64,000 nucleotides of DNA from Flavisolibacter longurius. GTDB lineage: Bacteria; Bacteroidota; Bacteroidia; Chitinophagales; Chitinophagaceae. Position numbers and translations under genes: made by a program. Below are positions 3,390-49,080 of the stretch, piece by piece; positions within the stretch are counted from its first letter, which is position 1, and each line of letters begins with the position of its first letter. The DNA lies in assembly GCA_014163555.1 (NCBI GenBank), contig JACJGO010000025.1:1-64000 (forward strand), written 5' to 3'. The notes beneath the pieces are model-generated. The model was not told where the DNA came from and did not search any database. It worked only from the letters and a program-made list of their open reading frames with translations.

Positions 3390-4085
3390 CTACAGCAGGT
3401 TCAACCGCTTGTTCAAATTTGCCTTATGCGTATCGGCAACGGGGATGGTCGTTTTGCCAATGGTGATGGTGCCTTCCTGGATAAAATCAATCTTATTGAT
3501 GGCAACAATATAACTGCGGTGCACCCGTAAGAATTTGCTGGCAGGAAGTTTTTCCTCGATGGATTTTAGGGTCGCATGCACCACATGAAACTTCTGCGGC
3601 GTGTGCACTTTTACATAATCGCCCATCGCCTCGAGAAACATAATATCGTCGATGGATATGCGTTTGAGCATGCCGTTGTCTTTCACAAACACAAAGCTCT
3701 GCTCTTCTATTTTGACTTCTTCTTTATTGCTGTCCAGTGTTTCCTGGGCTTTTTCCACGGCCTGCAGTAGGCGTGCCTGCGAAACCGGTTTTACCAGGTA
3801 ATCCACTACGTTCAGCTCAAAGGCTTCTACGGCGTAGTCTTTTTTTGCGGTGGTGAAAATGATGAGGGGTTTTTTGTTGCCCAGTTTTTTTATCAGGTCA
3901 ATACCGCTGATGTCAGGCATTTCGATATCCAGGAACAGAAGGTCAATCTGGTTTGCGCCTAACTGGTTGTAGGCTTCCATGGCATTGGCACATTCGGAAA
4001 CGATTTCCAACGACTGAATCTGGCTTACCAACTGTTTCAGCGCCATTCGGGCCATCTTATTATCATCAACAATTAAACACTTCAT
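3390..4085 (-). CDS. LytTR-family response regulator
   Basis: A 231-residue regulator. The N-terminal receiver begins MKCLIVDDNKMARMAL, with the acidic pocket DD, the phospho-Asp in LLFLDIEMPD and the conserved Lys in YLVKPV. The C-terminal LytTR DNA-binding domain follows from about residue 130 (FVFVKDNGMLKRI, then HRSYIVAINKID). ATG at 4085 was chosen because the receiver starts exactly there; the open frame extends to 4166 without recognisable sequence. LytTR regulators usually pair with a LytS-type histidine kinase, and none is adjacent here. The stop is directly followed by a word-repeat element. Confidence 0.95.
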   Translation of the reverse strand: MKCLIVDDNKMARMALKQLVSQIQSLEIVSECANAMEAYNQLGANQIDLLFLDIEMPDISGIDLIKKLGNKKPLIIFTTAKKDYAVEAFELNVVDYLVKPVSQARLLQAVEKAQETLDSNKEEVKIEEQSFVFVKDNGMLKRISIDDIMFLEAMGDYVKVHTPQKFHVVHATLKSIEEKLPASKFLRVHRSYIVAINKIDFIQEGTITIGKTTIPVADTHKANLNKRLNLL

Positions 4086-9990: not shown

Positions 9991-11455
9991 TCCTGGGCAG
10001 CAGGAGCCAGCAAAACAGTGTAATCAGGATCACTGAAATAATGTTCATGATAAAGCCCACTCTTGTCATGTGCTTTAACTTGATATAACCACTGGAGAAG
10101 GCAATGGCATTAGGCGGTGTGCCCATGGGCAGCATGCTGGCACAGGAAGCCGCCAGTGTCATGGGAATACCCAGAATAAGCGGATGGATCTGCGCTGCTT
10201 CTGCCAGTCCGCTTACCACTGGTGCAAATACAATCACCTGCGCCACATTGCTCATAACTTCCGAAACAAAAAGCGAAATAACCGTTACCAGAAAAATCAG
10301 CATCAACGTGCTAAAACCAAACTGCGCAAACCATTTGCCCAATTGTTCAATCAGGCCGACATTTTCCAGTGCTGTGGCCAGCGCAATGCCGCCGCCAAAA
10401 AGCAGGAGGATACCCCAGGCCATTTTGCTGGTATCGCTCCATTCCAGCAGGCTTTCTCCTTTTTTCTCCGCCGGTGTAACGAAGAGAGCCGTTGCTCCCA
10501 TGATGGCGATCATGTTGTCATCCAGTTTCAGCGGGCTTATGCTGTTGATCAAATCTTTTGTGATCCAAAGCAGGGCTGTTACCAGGAAGATGGCGAACAC
10601 TCTTTTTTCCGGTTTCGTAAACGGACCCAGGGTTGCCAGTTCCTTATTAATGATGTCTCCCGTGGCACTGTCATTTTTCATGCTGTTGGGATAAAGCCAC
10701 TTCACCATCACCAGGTATAAAATACCCATCAACAGCAAGGAAAGCGGTAAGCAAAGCAGCACCCAGTCTGCAAAGGCAATGGTGTCGTTGTAGCGTTTGT
10801 TATAAAAGCCGGCAAACGCCACGTTTGGAGGTGTGCCAATGATGGTAGCAACCCCTCCGAAATTGGAGGCCAGAGCAATGGCGATCATGATGGACATGGC
10901 AAAATTGGCCATGCCTTTTTTACCTGCATGGTTTTCTTCCATCACCTTCACAACCGATAAGGCAATAGGAAACATCATCATGGTTGTGGCTGTGTTGCTC
11001 AGCCACATGCTGATGGCACCGGTGGAAATAATAAAACCCAGGATGATGCGGTCGCCGCTGGTGCCGGTCAATCGAACAATATTCAAGGCAATGCGCCGGT
11101 GCAGGTTCCATTTTTCAATGGCAAGCCCCAGCATAAAACCACCCATAAATAAAAAGATGACCGGGTTGGCATATGACGTTGCCGTAGCAGCGATGGGCGC
11201 AATTCCAAACAGGGGAAAAAGGATCAGCGGCAGCAAGGCCACTACCGGCATGGGCAGGGCTTCCGTTACCCACAAGCCAATCATCAGCGTAGCAAAGGCA
11301 ATGACCAGTGCGGCCTTTGGTTCAACACCAAACGGATTCAATAAGTAAACAGCAATGGCTGCAATAACACAGAGTAGCGCTAAGACCTGTCTGGAAAACT
11401 GTACTGGCAATGGGAAAATTTTTGCCGAAGTAAGATTGCAAAAACCAGAAATCAA
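9971..11455 (-). CDS. SLC13/DASS-family sodium-coupled carboxylate carrier
   Basis: About 494 residues with roughly a dozen membrane helices. Typical DASS motifs are visible: LWVTEALPMPVVALLPLILFP near the start, SNTATTMMMFPIAL (SNT motif) in the middle, a second repeat with SEVMSNVAQV, and a C-terminal MLPMGTPPNAIAFSSG. Members import di- or tricarboxylates or sulfate with sodium; the substrate cannot be read here. The reading frame begins with TTG at 11455, overlapping the stop of the glycosylase gene (TTGA). An internal TTG is an alternative start. The stop codon is provided by the C-rich repeat. Confidence 0.92.
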   Translation of the reverse strand: MISGFCNLTSAKIFPLPVQFSRQVLALLCVIAAIAVYLLNPFGVEPKAALVIAFATLMIGLWVTEALPMPVVALLPLILFPLFGIAPIAATATSYANPVIFLFMGGFMLGLAIEKWNLHRRIALNIVRLTGTSGDRIILGFIISTGAISMWLSNTATTMMMFPIALSVVKVMEENHAGKKGMANFAMSIMIAIALASNFGGVATIIGTPPNVAFAGFYNKRYNDTIAFADWVLLCLPLSLLLMGILYLVMVKWLYPNSMKNDSATGDIINKELATLGPFTKPEKRVFAIFLVTALLWITKDLINSISPLKLDDNMIAIMGATALFVTPAEKKGESLLEWSDTSKMAWGILLLFGGGIALATALENVGLIEQLGKWFAQFGFSTLMLIFLVTVISLFVSEVMSNVAQVIVFAPVVSGLAEAAQIHPLILGIPMTLAASCASMLPMGTPPNAIAFSSGYIKLKHMTRVGFIMNIISVILITLFCWLLLPRIFPLSP

Positions 11456-12104: not shown

Positions 12105-12214
12105 AGTTCACGAGTTTACAAGGTCACCTGTTCACTTGTTCATAAATTGCGCCAACCCAAACGGTGAATCAACTTCGCACGAATGTCCACTGACCATTCA
12201 CCATTCACCTTTCC
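12105..12214. repeat. octamer array plus inverted heptamer array
   Basis: 12105-12144 contains five 8-bp words (AGTTCACG, AGTTTACA, AGGTCACC, TGTTCACT, TGTTCATA). 12187-12214 contains four 7-bp words (CCACTGA, CCATTCA, CCATTCA, CCTTTCC). This fills the space between two divergent genes and must overlap their promoters. Confidence 0.75.
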
Positions 12215-20345: not shown

Positions 20346-20402
20346 GTTTTTTTGAGCCGTGAGCCGCGAGCCGTGAGCTTTGAGCCTTTTTTAGCAATAC
20401 TT

Positions 20403-26247: not shown

Positions 26248-26253
26248 AAAGAC

Positions 26254-26311
26254 AGTTTGGAGTTTGGAGTTTGGAGTTTGGAGTTTGGAGTTTGGAGTTT
26301 GGAGTTTGGAG
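26254..26311. repeat. eight perfect tandem copies of AGTTTGG
   Basis: Eight exact 7-bp copies occupy 26254-26309, followed by AG. It is the only perfectly uniform array in the window and it has no inverted partner. It lies directly upstream of the pheT -7 box. Confidence 0.95.
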
Positions 26312-26348
26312 AAAACTCTTGAAGATAGAAATGGATGGTTCTGTATTT

Positions 26349-28670: not shown

Positions 28671-29384
28671 ATGGCACTTCCGTATTTTTTTGTTGAGGAT
28701 TTGGGTGAAAAAATGATTCAACTGGATGAGGATACTTCAAAGCACGCCATCGGTGTGTTGCGCATGGAAAGGGGAGAGGACGTGTTGCTCACCGATGGAA
28801 GGGGAAGCAAGGCCAGAGCCGCCATTGTTGATGATAACCGCAAGCGCTGCGTGGTGGAAATTGTTTCTGTTGCGAAAGACGAAGAGAAAGTCCCGCATGT
28901 TACAATTGCGATCTCTATTGTAAAAAATGCATCCCGCTTTGAATGGTTCCTGGAAAAAGCAACCGAGATTGGTGTCAGCGAAATTATTCCTCTGCTTTGC
29001 GATCGTACCGAAAAAGAAAAGTTCCGCTACGACAGAATGAAAGGAATTTTGATCAGTGCCATGTTACAATCACAACAAACCTGGTTGCCCGTTTTGCATC
29101 AGCCTACAGCATTTACAGAAGTAGTGAAGAATAGTGTACAAGGGCAAAAGTTTATAGCTCATTGTCTTCCCGAACAAAAGAGTCAACTGTCATCTGCCAT
29201 CCGCCATCCCTCATCCCTCATTCTCATTGGCCCAGAAGGTGATTTCACTCCTGCAGAAATAAGTGCGGCATTGGAACATCATTTCACACCTGTTGCTTTA
29301 GGCAATACAAGACTGCGCACGGAAACGGCCGGCCTTGTAGCTGCTACCTTGCTGATGAATGTTTCTGCTGAAAAAGAAGAATAA
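28671..29384 (+). CDS. rsmE: 16S rRNA (uracil-1498-N3)-methyltransferase
   Basis: A 237-residue SPOUT-class enzyme. The N-terminal PUA-like part (FFVEDLGEKMIQLDEDTSKHAIGVLRMERG) is followed by the trefoil-knot methylase with KNASRFEWFLEKATEIGV, LCDRTEKEKF, and near the end LILIGPEGDFTPAEI and LGNTRLRTETAG for SAM binding. Just before LILIGPEGD the segment LSSAIRHPSS is encoded by a heptamer array (29188-29222). It converges with pyrD; the two stop codons are adjacent with no gap. Confidence 0.94.
   Translation: MALPYFFVEDLGEKMIQLDEDTSKHAIGVLRMERGEDVLLTDGRGSKARAAIVDDNRKRCVVEIVSVAKDEEKVPHVTIAISIVKNASRFEWFLEKATEIGVSEIIPLLCDRTEKEKFRYDRMKGILISAMLQSQQTWLPVLHQPTAFTEVVKNSVQGQKFIAHCLPEQKSQLSSAIRHPSSLILIGPEGDFTPAEISAALEHHFTPVALGNTRLRTETAGLVAATLLMNVSAEKEE
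29188..29222 (+). repeat. half heptamer element inside rsmE
   Basis: Five 7-bp words (TGTCATC, TGCCATC, CGCCATC, CCTCATC, CCTCATT) are read in frame as SSAIRHPSS. This is the same frame and nearly the same peptide as the right arms of the elements in pyrD (SSFIRHPSS) and nrdJ (SSAIGHPSS). No left arm is recognisable upstream. Confidence 0.85.
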
Positions 29385-30476
29385 TTACCGCAAACCCTTG
29401 CTGATATTTTTTACGATGGTTGGCCCTTCATAAATAAAGCCCGTCCAAACTTCAATCAGGGAGGCGCCGCCTGCAATTTTCTCTGCGGCATCCCTGGCAG
29501 TAAAGATGCCGCCGGAGCCAATCACTGGAAGGGTGCCGCCGGTTTTTTGGTGAATGTATTGCAAGACTTCTGTGCTGCGTTGTGTTACGGGTTTTCCACT
29601 TAAGCCACCGGCGCCAATGGCGTTGATTTCTCCATCCTCTGTTTGTAAACCCTCCCGACTGATGGTCGTGTTGGTAGCTACAAGTCCATCAAGGTTGATC
29701 TCTTTTGCCAAATCAATTACATCATCAATTTGTGCTTCTGTAAGGTCCGGAGCAATCTTCAGCAAGATGGGGCGCTGTATAGAAAACGTTTTGTTCAGGT
29801 CCTGCAGGTGTGTCAGGATTTTTTTCAGCGCATCTTTTTCCTGCAGTTCGCGCAGTCCCGGTGTATTGGGGGAGCTTACATTCACCACAAAAAAATCAAC
29901 AAAGGGATGCAGTGCACGAAAGCAGATCTCGTAATCTTTCCAGGCTTCTTCATTCGGTGTCACTTTATTCTTGCCAATATTTCCTCCAATGATTAAGGAT
30001 GATGGATGACGGATGAAGGATGACTGTGTATGACGTTTGCTGTCATCCGTCATCTGCCATCTGCCATCTTTTTTCCGCCACTCCTTCAATCGTTTTGCTA
30101 CAGCGTCCACCCCATCGTTGTTAAAGCCCATTCGGTTGATGAGCGCTTTGTCTTTTGGCAGGCGAAACAGGCGGGGTTTTTCATTTCCCTCCTGTGGTCG
30201 TGGGGTAACCGTTCCGATTTCCACAAAACCAAAACCCAAGGTTTCCAGCTCACGCAGATATTTTGCATTCTTGTCAAAGCCTGCACCCAGTCCAATACGA
30301 TTGGGAAAAGTAAGACCAAAGGCTGTAAACGGTGCACTTTGCGCCGGTGCAAAAAAACGCTTCAGCCCATTGCGCACCGGTTGTAATGCACATAACAGGC
30401 GAAGTCCGTTCATAGAAAAATGGTGTGCGGTTTCTGCCGGAAGCAGAAATAAAATGCGGCGTAAAGCGTGGTACAT
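29385..30476 (-). CDS. pyrD: quinone-dependent dihydroorotate dehydrogenase, with a 24-residue repeat insertion
   Basis: A 363-residue class 2 enzyme oxidising dihydroorotate to orotate at the membrane. The N-terminal helices (ALRRILFLLPAETAHHFSMNGL) fit quinone access. FMN and substrate motifs are FPNRIGLGAGFDKNA, GFVEIGTVTP, GGNIGKNK, NVSSPNTPGLR, LVATNTT and VIGSGGIFTARDA. Between KRLKEWRKK and LIIGGNIGKNK lies an extra segment (DGRWQMTDDSKRHTQSS then FIRHPSS) encoded by the 72-bp palindrome at 29997-30068. Without it the length (339) matches E. coli PyrD (336). The frame is intact, so the enzyme is probably active. Confidence 0.95.
   Translation of the reverse strand: MYHALRRILFLLPAETAHHFSMNGLRLLCALQPVRNGLKRFFAPAQSAPFTAFGLTFPNRIGLGAGFDKNAKYLRELETLGFGFVEIGTVTPRPQEGNEKPRLFRLPKDKALINRMGFNNDGVDAVAKRLKEWRKKDGRWQMTDDSKRHTQSSFIRHPSSLIIGGNIGKNKVTPNEEAWKDYEICFRALHPFVDFFVVNVSSPNTPGLRELQEKDALKKILTHLQDLNKTFSIQRPILLKIAPDLTEAQIDDVIDLAKEINLDGLVATNTTISREGLQTEDGEINAIGAGGLSGKPVTQRSTEVLQYIHQKTGGTLPVIGSGGIFTARDAAEKIAGGASLIEVWTGFIYEGPTIVKNISKGLR
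29997..30068 (-). repeat. 72-bp in-frame palindromic element inside pyrD
   Basis: Four heptamers on one side (29997-30024: GGATGAT, GGATGAC, GGATGAA, GGATGAC), a 16-nt loop (30025-30040), and four on the other (30041-30068: TGTCATC, CGTCATC, TGCCATC, TGCCATC). Total length is exactly 24 codons. The same architecture is in nrdJ at 48248-48319. Confidence 0.93.
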
Positions 30477-45705: not shown

Positions 45706-48700
45706 ATGGCAAGTGCAAAAAAAACCACAACAAAAGGACTCCGGTTCACCCGGAAGTACACACGTGACGAAGTCAGCGTGTTTGATCTGTTTCAGTACGA
45801 TTACCGTACATCCGTGATCCGAAACCCTAGCGGCGAAGTGGTATTTGAGATGAACAACGTGGAAGTTCCCAAGCAGTGGAGCCAGATTGCCACGGACATC
45901 CTTGCCCAAAAATATTTCCGCAAAGCCGGCGTACCCCAACCCGATGGTTCGCTGGGCCGCGAAACTTCTGTAAAACAAGTGGCACACCGCATGGCCAACT
46001 GCTGGCGGGTGTGGGGCGAAAAGTATGGCTACTTCGCCACCGAACAAGATGCCCAGGTTTTTTACGATGAACTGGTTTATTCTATCCTGAACCAAATGTG
46101 TGTGCCCAACAGCCCGCAGTGGTTTAACACGGGTCTTCACGAAAGCTATGGCATTACCGGCAAGCCCCAGGGTCATTATTATGTAGACCAGGCTGACGGC
46201 CAACTGAAAAAGTCAACCAATGCTTACGAGCGTCCGCAACCCCACGCCTGCTTTATCCTGAGTGTGGAAGACGACCTGGTAGGCGACGGCGGCATCATGG
46301 ACCTTTGGGTTCGGGAAGCCCGCATCTTTAAATACGGTTCCGGTGTAGGAACCAACTATAGCAACATCCGGGGCGAAGGCGAAAAACTGAGCGGCGGTGG
46401 TACCTCTTCGGGCCTCATGTCTTTCCTGAAGATCGGCGACCGTGCAGCCGGTGCTATCAAAAGTGGTGGTACAACACGTCGTGCCGCCAAAATGGTTTGC
46501 CTCGATATCGATCACCCCGAAATTGAGCAGTTTGTTAACTGGAAAGTAGAAGAAGAAAAGAAAGTAGCCGCCCTGATTGAAGCGGGTTATGCTTCCGACT
46601 ACGAAGGCGAAGCCTATCGCACCGTAAGTGGACAAAACTCCAACAACTCCGTTCGGATTCCCAATGAGTTTTTTGAAAAGCTGGAGAAAGGCGAAGACTG
46701 GGAACTGAAAGCCCGTACCGATGGTCGTGTGATGAAAAAAGTTCCGGCCAAAGAACTGTGGAACCAGATCTCTTACGCCGCCTGGCGCTGTGCCGACCCG
46801 GGAACGCAGTACAATACCACCATTAACGAGTGGCATACCTGCCCCGAAGGTGGTGAGATCCGTGCTTCCAACCCTTGCTCGGAGTACATGTTCCTCGACA
46901 ATACGGCTTGTAACCTCGCTTCTGCTAACCTGATCAAGTTCTTCAACTTCGAGAACAATACACTGGATGTAGAAGGCTTTGAGTACGTGTGCCGCCTGTG
47001 GACAACCGTACTGGAAATTTCTGTACTGATGGCGCAGTTCCCATCGAAAGAAGTGGCACAACTGAGCTACGAGTACCGTACGCTGGGTTTGGGTTATGCC
47101 AACCTGGGAACGGTGCTGATGGTAAGCGGTATTCCGTACGACAGCGAAAAGGCAAGAGCCCTTGCTGGTTCTATTACGGCGATTATGACGGGTATTGCTT
47201 ACAAGACGTCTGCAGAAATGGCCGAAGTGCTGGGCGCCTTCCCCCGTTACGAAGAAAACAAGGCCCACATGCTGCGGGTAATGCGCAACCACCGTCTGGC
47301 TGCGTATGATGCCGACAGTTATGAAGGCCTGAGTGTAAAGCCACAAGGCCTGAAAGCACAATATTGCCCCGACTACCTGCTGAAAGCCGCCTGCAAGGCC
47401 TGGGATGATGCAGTGGAACTGGGAGAGAAGTTTGGCTACAGGAATGCGCAGGCAACTGTAATTGCCCCAACCGGCACCATTGGTTTGGTGATGGATTGCG
47501 ATACCACCGGTGTAGAACCTGATTTTGCCCTGGTGAAATTTAAAAAATTGTCTGGTGGCGGTTATTTCAAGATCATCAACCAATCGGTGCCTGTGGCCCT
47601 GAAGAACCTGGGGTATGATGAAAAGCAAACCGACGCAATCATTAAATATGCGGTAGGTGCAGGAACCTTTGCCGGTGCACCGCACATCAACCACCAAACG
47701 CTGAGCGAAAAAGGTTTCATCGCCTCTGAAATTGCCAAGCTGGATAAAGCGGTGGGCAGTGCCTTTGAGATCGGCTTTGTATTTAACGTGTATACCTTGG
47801 GTGAAGAATGCCTGCAGCGCCTTGGCTTCACCCCCGAACAATACTACAACTTTGAGTGGAGCCTGCTGGAAGCACTGGGCTTTACCGACGAGCAGATTGA
47901 AGCTGCCAACGACTATGTCTGCGGAACGATGACGACCGAAGGAGCGCCTTTCCTGAAAGCCGAGCACTACCCGGTGTTTGACTGCGCCAACAAATGTGGT
48001 AAAAAAGGGGAGCGTTACATTCATGCCCATGGCCACATTCGCATGATGGGAGCCGCACAGCCTTTCATTTCCGGTGCCATATCAAAAACCATCAACCTGC
48101 CACACGAAGCAGAAGTGGAAGAAATTGCCGATTCGTATTTACTGAGCTGGCAGTTAGGCCTGAAAGCGTGTGCCCTGTACCGTGATGGTTCTAAGTTGTC
48201 GCAGCCGCTGAGTAACAAGAGCGATAAGAAGAAAAAAGAAGACAAAGCAGATGACAGTACACAGATGACAGAGGAAAACAAAGAGAAAGCACTGTCATCC
48301 GCCATCGGTCATCCATCATCTGACTCCGCCATTGTTGATCTGGGCAAACTGACCATCCAGGAACTGCTGGAAGAAGTGCAAAAACGTGTACAGGCTTCAC
48401 CCGATACGCAACTGAAACGCCAGTTGGCTACCATCGTAGAGCGTCGGTCATTGCCGGCCAAACGCCGTGGCTTTACCCAAAAAGCCAAGATCAACGGGCA
48501 GGCCATCTTTGTTCGCACCGGCGAATACGGTGATGGTACACTGGGTGAGATCTTCATTGACATGGCAAAAGAAGGCGCTACCATGCGTAGTATGCTGAAC
48601 TGTTTTGCCATTGCGGTTTCTGTCGGCCTGCAATACGGTGTGCCGCTGGATGAATACGTGGAGAAATTTGTATTCACCAAGTTCGACCCCGCAGGTTTCG

Positions 48701-49080
48701 TAGAGCATCCGAACATTAAATCATCCACCTCTATTATTGACTTTATCTTCCGCCTGTTGGGTTACGAATACCTGAACCGCACAGACTTGGTGCATGTGCT
48801 GGACAAGCCGGAAGTAAGCAACACCGGTGAAGAGGATTGGGACGAGCCGGTAAAACAGCCTGAGTTGTCAAGCGTACGCGTTGTGGCCAGCACACCACAA
48901 AGTGTGAAAGCACAGGCAGCCGCAACACCCAAAAGCAGCAATGCGCTGGATGCCGTGAATGTGGCAGCCCGCAGCATGCAAAGCGATGCGCCGGCCTGTA
49001 ATACCTGCGGACACATTACCGTTAGAAGTGGAACTTGTTACAAGTGTTTGAACTGCGGTAACAGCATGGGTTGCAGCTAA
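45706..49080 (+). CDS. nrdJ: adenosylcobalamin-dependent (class II) ribonucleotide reductase
   Basis: A 1124-residue enzyme reducing ribonucleotides with a B12 radical, independent of oxygen. It has MCVPNSPQWFNTGL near the start, the substrate and Cys region HACFILSVEDDL, GSGVGTNYSNIRG, NPCSEYMFLDNTACNLASANL with active-site Cys, and ATVIAPTGTIG. The C-terminus has paired cysteines (CNTCGHITVRSGTCYKCLNC) for electron delivery. A hydrophilic linker after LSQPLSNKSDKKKKEDK contains 24 codons of a palindromic repeat (48248-48319). Length fits the large NrdJ class. It is followed by a terminator. Confidence 0.96.
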   Translation: MASAKKTTTKGLRFTRKYTRDEVSVFDLFQYDYRTSVIRNPSGEVVFEMNNVEVPKQWSQIATDILAQKYFRKAGVPQPDGSLGRETSVKQVAHRMANCWRVWGEKYGYFATEQDAQVFYDELVYSILNQMCVPNSPQWFNTGLHESYGITGKPQGHYYVDQADGQLKKSTNAYERPQPHACFILSVEDDLVGDGGIMDLWVREARIFKYGSGVGTNYSNIRGEGEKLSGGGTSSGLMSFLKIGDRAAGAIKSGGTTRRAAKMVCLDIDHPEIEQFVNWKVEEEKKVAALIEAGYASDYEGEAYRTVSGQNSNNSVRIPNEFFEKLEKGEDWELKARTDGRVMKKVPAKELWNQISYAAWRCADPGTQYNTTINEWHTCPEGGEIRASNPCSEYMFLDNTACNLASANLIKFFNFENNTLDVEGFEYVCRLWTTVLEISVLMAQFPSKEVAQLSYEYRTLGLGYANLGTVLMVSGIPYDSEKARALAGSITAIMTGIAYKTSAEMAEVLGAFPRYEENKAHMLRVMRNHRLAAYDADSYEGLSVKPQGLKAQYCPDYLLKAACKAWDDAVELGEKFGYRNAQATVIAPTGTIGLVMDCDTTGVEPDFALVKFKKLSGGGYFKIINQSVPVALKNLGYDEKQTDAIIKYAVGAGTFAGAPHINHQTLSEKGFIASEIAKLDKAVGSAFEIGFVFNVYTLGEECLQRLGFTPEQYYNFEWSLLEALGFTDEQIEAANDYVCGTMTTEGAPFLKAEHYPVFDCANKCGKKGERYIHAHGHIRMMGAAQPFISGAISKTINLPHEAEVEEIADSYLLSWQLGLKACALYRDGSKLSQPLSNKSDKKKKEDKADDSTQMTEENKEKALSSAIGHPSSDSAIVDLGKLTIQELLEEVQKRVQASPDTQLKRQLATIVERRSLPAKRRGFTQKAKINGQAIFVRTGEYGDGTLGEIFIDMAKEGATMRSMLNCFAIAVSVGLQYGVPLDEYVEKFVFTKFDPAGFVEHPNIKSSTSIIDFIFRLLGYEYLNRTDLVHVLDKPEVSNTGEEDWDEPVKQPELSSVRVVASTPQSVKAQAAATPKSSNALDAVNVAARSMQSDAPACNTCGHITVRSGTCYKCLNCGNSMGCS
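48248..48319 (+). repeat. 72-bp in-frame palindromic element inside nrdJ
   Basis: Left arm 48248-48275 (CAGATGA, CAGTACA, CAGATGA, CAGAGGA), a 16-nt loop, and right arm 48292-48319 (CTGTCAT, CCGCCAT, CGGTCAT, CCATCAT). It has the same 28+16+28 layout as the pyrD copy and the same reading frame, encoding QMT..NK.. then SSAIGHPSS. It lies in a Lys/Glu-rich linker. Confidence 0.9.

Follow-up and report, generated by a model that had tools for sequence, protein, structure and literature searches.

The Rickettsia palindromic elements (RPE) have been proposed to be moved as whole palindromes by a transposase, and the heptanucleotide repeats of cyanobacteria are named STRR. RPE are described as palindromes of 105-146 bp (PMC2229807), which lie in frame in conserved genes and also between genes and encode a recurrent peptide (PMC2229807, PMC10969869). 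In the P6b loop of the Nostoc trnL intron, the cited passages report 7-nt repeat motifs on both sides of the stem, and the word classes TDNGATT and NNTGAGT replace each other there at one fixed place (PMC4476775). Further bacterial heptanucleotide repeats are reported from Xanthomonas (GGGAATC), Beggiatoaceae (TAACTGA) and Geobacter metallireducens (GGACCGG), the last with 49 places that hold four heptamers, within and between genes (PMC2700814, PMC4692102, PMC4679880). For the over-representation of heptamers in bacteria, the sections cited here offer only a slippage hypothesis for the unit of 7 (PMC4692102, PMC4679880). The tandem repeats of Borgs are reported to evolve fast and to add disordered stretches to proteins (PMC9879509), and the length given for REP sequences is 20-40 bp (PMC3733652). 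A search of the open-licence PMC literature found no account of such elements in Chitinophagaceae, which is a weak result, the matches being partly unrelated.

Here we analysed a 64,000-nt stretch of a Chitinophagaceae genome (the window), for which Flavisolibacter species are the nearest relatives with a name. The initial annotation had likened a palindrome inside pyrD to RPE, and this likeness, as palindromes lying in frame within genes, was supported. We give a probability of about 0.5 to the reading that these are heptamer-armed palindromic repeats, which would occupy fixed, tolerant sites and would owe both their spread and their overwriting to one repeat being copied onto another.

Results

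Heptamer-built elements in pyrD, nrdJ and rsmE

The features of the window are listed in Table 1. In pyrD, the palindrome at 29997-30068 had exactly the 28+16+28 bp layout first described for it, 72 bp in total. Its words at 29997-30024 were GGATGAT, GGATGAC, GGATGAA and GGATGAC, while the left arm in gene reading was GATGGCA GATGGCA GATGACG GATGACA, and the complementarity of the two arms was 77% over 30 nt. RNA folding gave a z of -5.3 on the coding strand and -6.5 on the other, and 0 of 200 shuffles equalled either value. The element at 48248-48319 in nrdJ, which the initial annotation had taken to be of the same design, indeed repeated the 28+16+28 layout; its left arm was degraded, however, with two clear words left and an arm complementarity of 73% over 22 nt. 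As a hairpin the nrdJ copy is weak, because folding gave a z of only -1.7 for the coding strand, a value reached by 10 of 200 shuffles, and of -3.7 for the opposite strand, reached by 2 of 200. The rsmE array is a third coding copy in the window that had been missed before. A second, partial nrdJ-like match was found at G000:C20:52355-53050, covering residues 1-232 with 94% identity.

Table 1 Positions of the host genes and repeat elements in the window.
Feature	Position	Strand	Basis
rsmE (16S rRNA methyltransferase family), host gene	28671..29384	+	ORF + Pfam PF04452, PF20260
rsmE array, right-arm words only, codon phase as in pyrD/nrdJ	29187..29222	+	
pyrD (dihydroorotate dehydrogenase), host gene	29385..30476	-	ORF + Pfam PF01180
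pyrD element, arm of four GGATGAN words on + strand (right arm in gene reading)	29997..30024	-	
pyrD element, 16-nt loop	30025..30040	-	
pyrD element, arm of four inverted words (left arm in gene reading)	30041..30068	-	
nrdJ (class II ribonucleotide reductase), host gene	45706..49080	+	ORF + Pfam PF02867, PF08471
nrdJ element, left arm, degraded (GATGACA GTACACA GATGACA)	48248..48275	+	
nrdJ element, 16-nt loop	48276..48291	+	
nrdJ element, right arm of CATC words	48292..48319	+	

The spacing from NNDG to GGNIG was 41 residues in the window PyrD versus 20-22 in bare PyrD relatives, a net excess of about 19-21 residues. The NrdJ segment between YRDGSK and the GF motif measured 74-91 residues in the 23 loci, out of 26, for which both ends could be located (25 of the 26 were reported, two of these without the end motif), and the window value of 91 corresponds to a net excess of up to 17. 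The earlier proposal that removal of 24 codons restores normal length therefore held only approximately. Most of the extra stretch was absent from PDB homologues of PyrD, CysS, ValS and LigA.

A repeat family dispersed through the window genome

Pattern searches, together with inspection of the surroundings, yielded 19 loci of a GATGAC/GTCATC heptamer family in the 5.66-Mb assembly; this list is not exhaustive, as the patterns require intact words, and L055 and L056, which matched with another word, were left out. Seven of the 19 lay in genes, named from Pfam as pyrD, nrdJ, rsmE, valS (L042), cysS (L045), ligA (L050) and a FAD-linked oxidase gene (L041), and the other 12 were judged from ORFs alone to lie outside genes. 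Both arms were present in 14 loci, with a loop of 15-19 nt in 11 of them and 29-36 nt in three, and with inner boundaries near GATGACA/G...CTG/TCATC (slashes mark the boundaries). Coding elements varied in length, from the 72 bp of pyrD and nrdJ to about 57-90 bp in the others.

The window contained four four-unit CATC runs at 7-nt spacing, and runs of at least three were absent from 20 mononucleotide shuffles of it. Searching the genome for GATGR..GATGR-gap-YCATC..YCATC gave 11 matches per strand, overlapping and falling in 6 places; the reversed-string control of this order and the opposite arm order each gave 0. Strict period-7 arrays numbered 12 in 400 kb, with 0-3 for the other non-multiple periods and 0 in a Markov simulation. 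A chance origin was rejected, since shuffles, reversed-string control and simulation were all empty.

Arrays of other heptamer words were also observed. In the window these were a GGAGTTT array at 26253-26312, about 8 units long and perfect or nearly so, and short arrays of ACCATTC at 12193-12213 and GAGCCGT at 20353-20373. Long, clean arrays were seen for AACCAAT, with about 19 units (L153 159-292; G000 contig C58 159-292), and for GACTCCT, with about 18 units (L166 about 10376-10509; G000 contig C58 270376-270509).

One architecture at 19 dispersed loci could point to a protein-coding MITE, in which a transposase moves whole palindromes and later decay makes the words differ. The single frame of all seven coding copies and the left arms of nrdJ and L041, unrelated genes that differ here at 1 of 22 bases, would agree with it. 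Nevertheless, the arms are purely heptamer, sister species carry different heptamer words at one site, and the loops matched at 6.13 of 10 positions versus 5.81 after shuffling (sd 0.09), an excess that includes the shared edges. A transposase moving whole elements would be insufficient, because the loops are unrelated and the sites are reused, and we consider this explanation unlikely. Copying of whole elements with their loops received little support as well, the loops being barely above shuffled likeness.

REP-type elements mobilised by RAYT (Y1_Tnp) transposases were also considered, as PF01797 matches were found in 19 of 20 genomes searched, including four in the window genome. However, the same search was positive in 5 of 14 control genomes, so that the presence of such genes is common, and the 10 Y1_Tnp loci inspected (G000, G021, G004) all had no GATGAC array within 3.5 kb; one of the ten (L279) had an array of another word. 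These loci disfavour the RAYT link, which we regard as very improbable.

Stop-free words and the common reading frame

The end phase (H-P/L-S-S) was shared by all seven coding copies, and the left-arm phase by the six with a left arm, so the common frame claimed earlier for pyrD and nrdJ extends to every genic copy found. At equal chance per frame, such agreement has a probability of 1 in 729 (arithmetic). Because 7 and 3 share no factor, the three frames of a heptamer array all yield one cyclic heptapeptide: CGTCATC arrays translate as RHPSSVI and GATGACG arrays as DDG-stop-RMT. Three intact GATGACN words place a TGA in every frame of the left arm, and survival within a gene is therefore restricted to copies in which a word has changed. 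In all five full left arms on the coding strand the second word was altered and frame 0 was open, as it was in the pyrD copy of G004; the six altered words were GATGGCA, GTACACA, GAACACA, GAGGACA, GATTGCA and GAAGACA. Among non-coding left arms (11 loci), frame 0 was open in 3 of 14; L043 was left out of this comparison.

These sequences suggest that selection maintains a stop-free design and that the common frame is its consequence. The initial annotation had offered selection or a frame-favouring insertion mechanism; selection for stop-free copies is sufficient, and a special frame-keeping mechanism is not needed. Perhaps one stop-free lineage was copied among genes, because the left arms of nrdJ and L041 are nearly identical. 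The initial annotation had named genome copies in random frames and lengths as a refutation; random frames were not observed, whereas the lengths of the coding elements did vary, which agrees with it in part.

Fixed sites across Chitinophagaceae

Homologous sites of the family were examined by a lag-7 array test. PyrD site 2 was extracted from 82 of 83 loci and was positive in 30, site 1 in 14 of 82 and site 3 in 16 of the 56 extracted. The NrdJ linker was positive in 6 of 21 (extracted from 26 loci, including one duplicate genome, as G104 and G198 give the same place). Of the CysS linkers, 8 of 14 were positive; from the 27 CysS loci, 14 linkers served for the lag test and 10 for word comparison. 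Lags 5, 6 and 8-13 gave 0-3 positives at the PyrD, NrdJ and CysS sites. In the 85 codons downstream of PyrD site 2, lag 7 was positive in 4 of 82, lag 9 in 8 of 82 and other lags in 0-2. The words seen included AATTACG, ACTCATC, AACTACA, CGACTCC, GACTCAC, GGTCAAT and CAGGCAA. In many species, coding genes thus carry arrays at recurring tolerant sites without loss of frame, and at one site the words differ from species to species. A clean absence of 24 residues in relatives, as foreseen by the initial annotation, was not what we found; instead, PyrD relatives had sites of variable length, often with other heptamer words, and their peptides showed no conservation. At PyrD site 2 of L146 (about 3440-3460), L125 and L090, a CCCGATAGCTATCGGG-like palindrome was observed in frame, either inside the heptamer array or next to it.

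Strict arrays numbered 34 in 80 PyrD genes, of which 33 were stop-free in the sense direction and 25 had an antisense stop; of random sense-stop-free words, about 27% would have an antisense stop. Stretches of 16 genomes held 27 strict arrays in 1.65 Mb, 16 of them within 464 kb of the window genome, and in the same stretches period 12 gave 6 and period 8 gave 5. PyrD is a hot spot for heptamer arrays, far richer than random stretches, and this richness is beyond what copying alone explains. TTCAATA-like words were frequent at PyrD site 1 and recurred in several species (L073-L152 set), which fits plain descent. The GATGR..YCATC pattern was found in 16 of 195 family genomes, some matches being other words, and its control in 1 of 195.

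Many arrays at PyrD site 2 extend into the host codons for L-I-I, as would be expected if each array was born in place from host sequence by local slippage alone, with 7 nt as the favoured slippage unit. Reports of heptamers as the commonest long simple repeats in many bacteria, with slippage as the hypothesis, point the same way (PMC4692102, PMC4679880). Against it stand the occurrence of a single word family at 19 loci in the same genome, the inverted arms in 14 of them and the genome-specific vocabularies; moreover, clean 21-nt growth of the left arm in a gene would add a stop. Slippage as the only process seems to us quite unlikely.

Words replaced in a sister species

The window was collinear with a contig of the sister species F. 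longurius BT320 (G195, the genome of L073), with 97% NrdJ identity between the two. All four coding sites compared were filled in G195, with other words: GAGTTTG with AACTACA-like words in pyrD, CCAGACG with CCAAACC in nrdJ, CACTCAC-like words in rsmE, and GCAGTAG in cysS versus GATGAC in both the window genome and G004. The pyrD of G004 had GATGAC words, with length and frame as in the window. The NrdJ+CysS tree was ((window, G195), G004), with support of 0.999 and 1.000. Sequence comparison thus places the change of the pyrD and cysS words on the G195 branch, because the outgroup G004 has GATGAC words at both genes. In the G195 genome, CGTCATC x3 gave 0 matches and AACTACA x3 gave 49, and CTACTGC x3, which is complementary to the word at its cysS site, gave 75. 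No single alignment of the window with F. longurius spans the array at 20353 or the one at 26253.

Matched arms and genome vocabularies

In 23 PyrD inserts (those shorter than 34 residues were excluded; the 23 are not independent, some being close kin), the halves paired better within species, with a mean of -14.2 versus -9.3 kcal/mol between species, and 0 of 20000 permutations was as good. For 7 of the 23, pairing with the own half did not exceed that with the median foreign half; the two arms are matched in most PyrD inserts. Across 29 genomes the numbers of each word varied widely; CGTCATC x3 was counted in 5, ACTCACG x3 in 17 and AACTACA x3 in 19; reversed-word controls were mostly 0, except in G195, where the control string is an abundant heptamer array. 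With PyrD matches removed, the PyrD word agreed with the genome count for three words (p 0.010, 0.029 and 0.074, one-sided and uncorrected for ancestry). Eight of 14 inspected word-genome groupings came from loose matching (at most 5 mismatches), again uncorrected for ancestry. Words at a site thus tend to match words dispersed in the same genome, with exceptions, as far as these counts indicate.

It is possible, though doubtful, that the genomes of the family keep fixed docking sites, several of them in essential genes, where words are rewritten in trans by a dedicated process that would give each genome its own vocabulary; hairpin-guided conversion or the templated addition of heptamers would be examples.

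G021 has long nested hairpins, and among the 32 arrays in ten of its stretches, 20 lay outside ORFs of at least 120 aa. These hairpins (L282-L291) carry outer GGATGTT words and inner GGATGAC words in both arms. The strong pyrD folds and the occupation of the same sites in many species might suggest a selected function, with the hairpin acting on transcripts, or a useful peptide loop, kept by selection. Yet 52 of 82 PyrD genes fail the site 2 array test, the peptides are not conserved, and the G021 arrays occupy divergent, tandem and convergent spacers alike. We regard such a function as improbable.

Discussion

At about even odds, we favour slippage combined with short-homology copying. Arms would lengthen and shorten through slippage in 7-nt steps, and matched arms would be maintained by mutual copying through the hairpin. 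Through short-homology template switching or conversion, arrays elsewhere in the genome may serve as the source both for seeding new sites and for overwriting old arrays. Within genes, only stop-free, frame-keeping copies would survive, and a benefit to the host would not be required. We infer copying between arrays as the cause of word change; evidence against such copying is the intergenic array at 12193-12213, whose word is identical in the window and F. longurius, and G021, which has a bare PyrD site 2 despite 395 CGTCATC matches.

The loops of PyrD, NrdJ, RsmE and CysS can be seen as natural replicates, in which period and place persist while words change in genes under selection. Strain comparison thus offers a direct test of how heptamer repeats arise and spread and of how proteins grow from repeats. 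The loop insertions in these four proteins are probably derived from repeats and unlikely to be functional domains.

By analogy, the window repeats work like RPE and the heptamer hairpins of Nostoc, although their length sets them apart from the former and their location from the latter, so that they do not qualify as members of either; the comparison with RPE is by description only. Like RPE, the window copies lie in frame in conserved genes with a recurrent peptide and form palindromes with long hairpins, clearly in pyrD and only weakly in nrdJ. Unlike RPE, they measure only about 60-90 bp, their arms are heptamer arrays, and their words switch between species at one site. With REP/RAYT systems they have in common short dispersed hairpins and the presence of Y1_Tnp genes, but the inspected genes had no GATGAC arrays alongside. 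The Borg repeats, likened here by description only, are also fast-evolving and add stretches to proteins, and Borgs are extrachromosomal archaeal elements. As in STRR and other heptanucleotide repeats, tandem 7-nt units occur at many places of the window genome, whereas those repeats are mostly direct repeats of one word and inverted pairs are a minority there. The Nostoc P6b loop shares the heptamer-built stem and the replacement of words at a fixed place; it is an RNA loop in the cyanobacterial group I intron of tRNA-Leu, while the window repeats are found in spacers and protein-coding genes of Bacteroidota and use many words.
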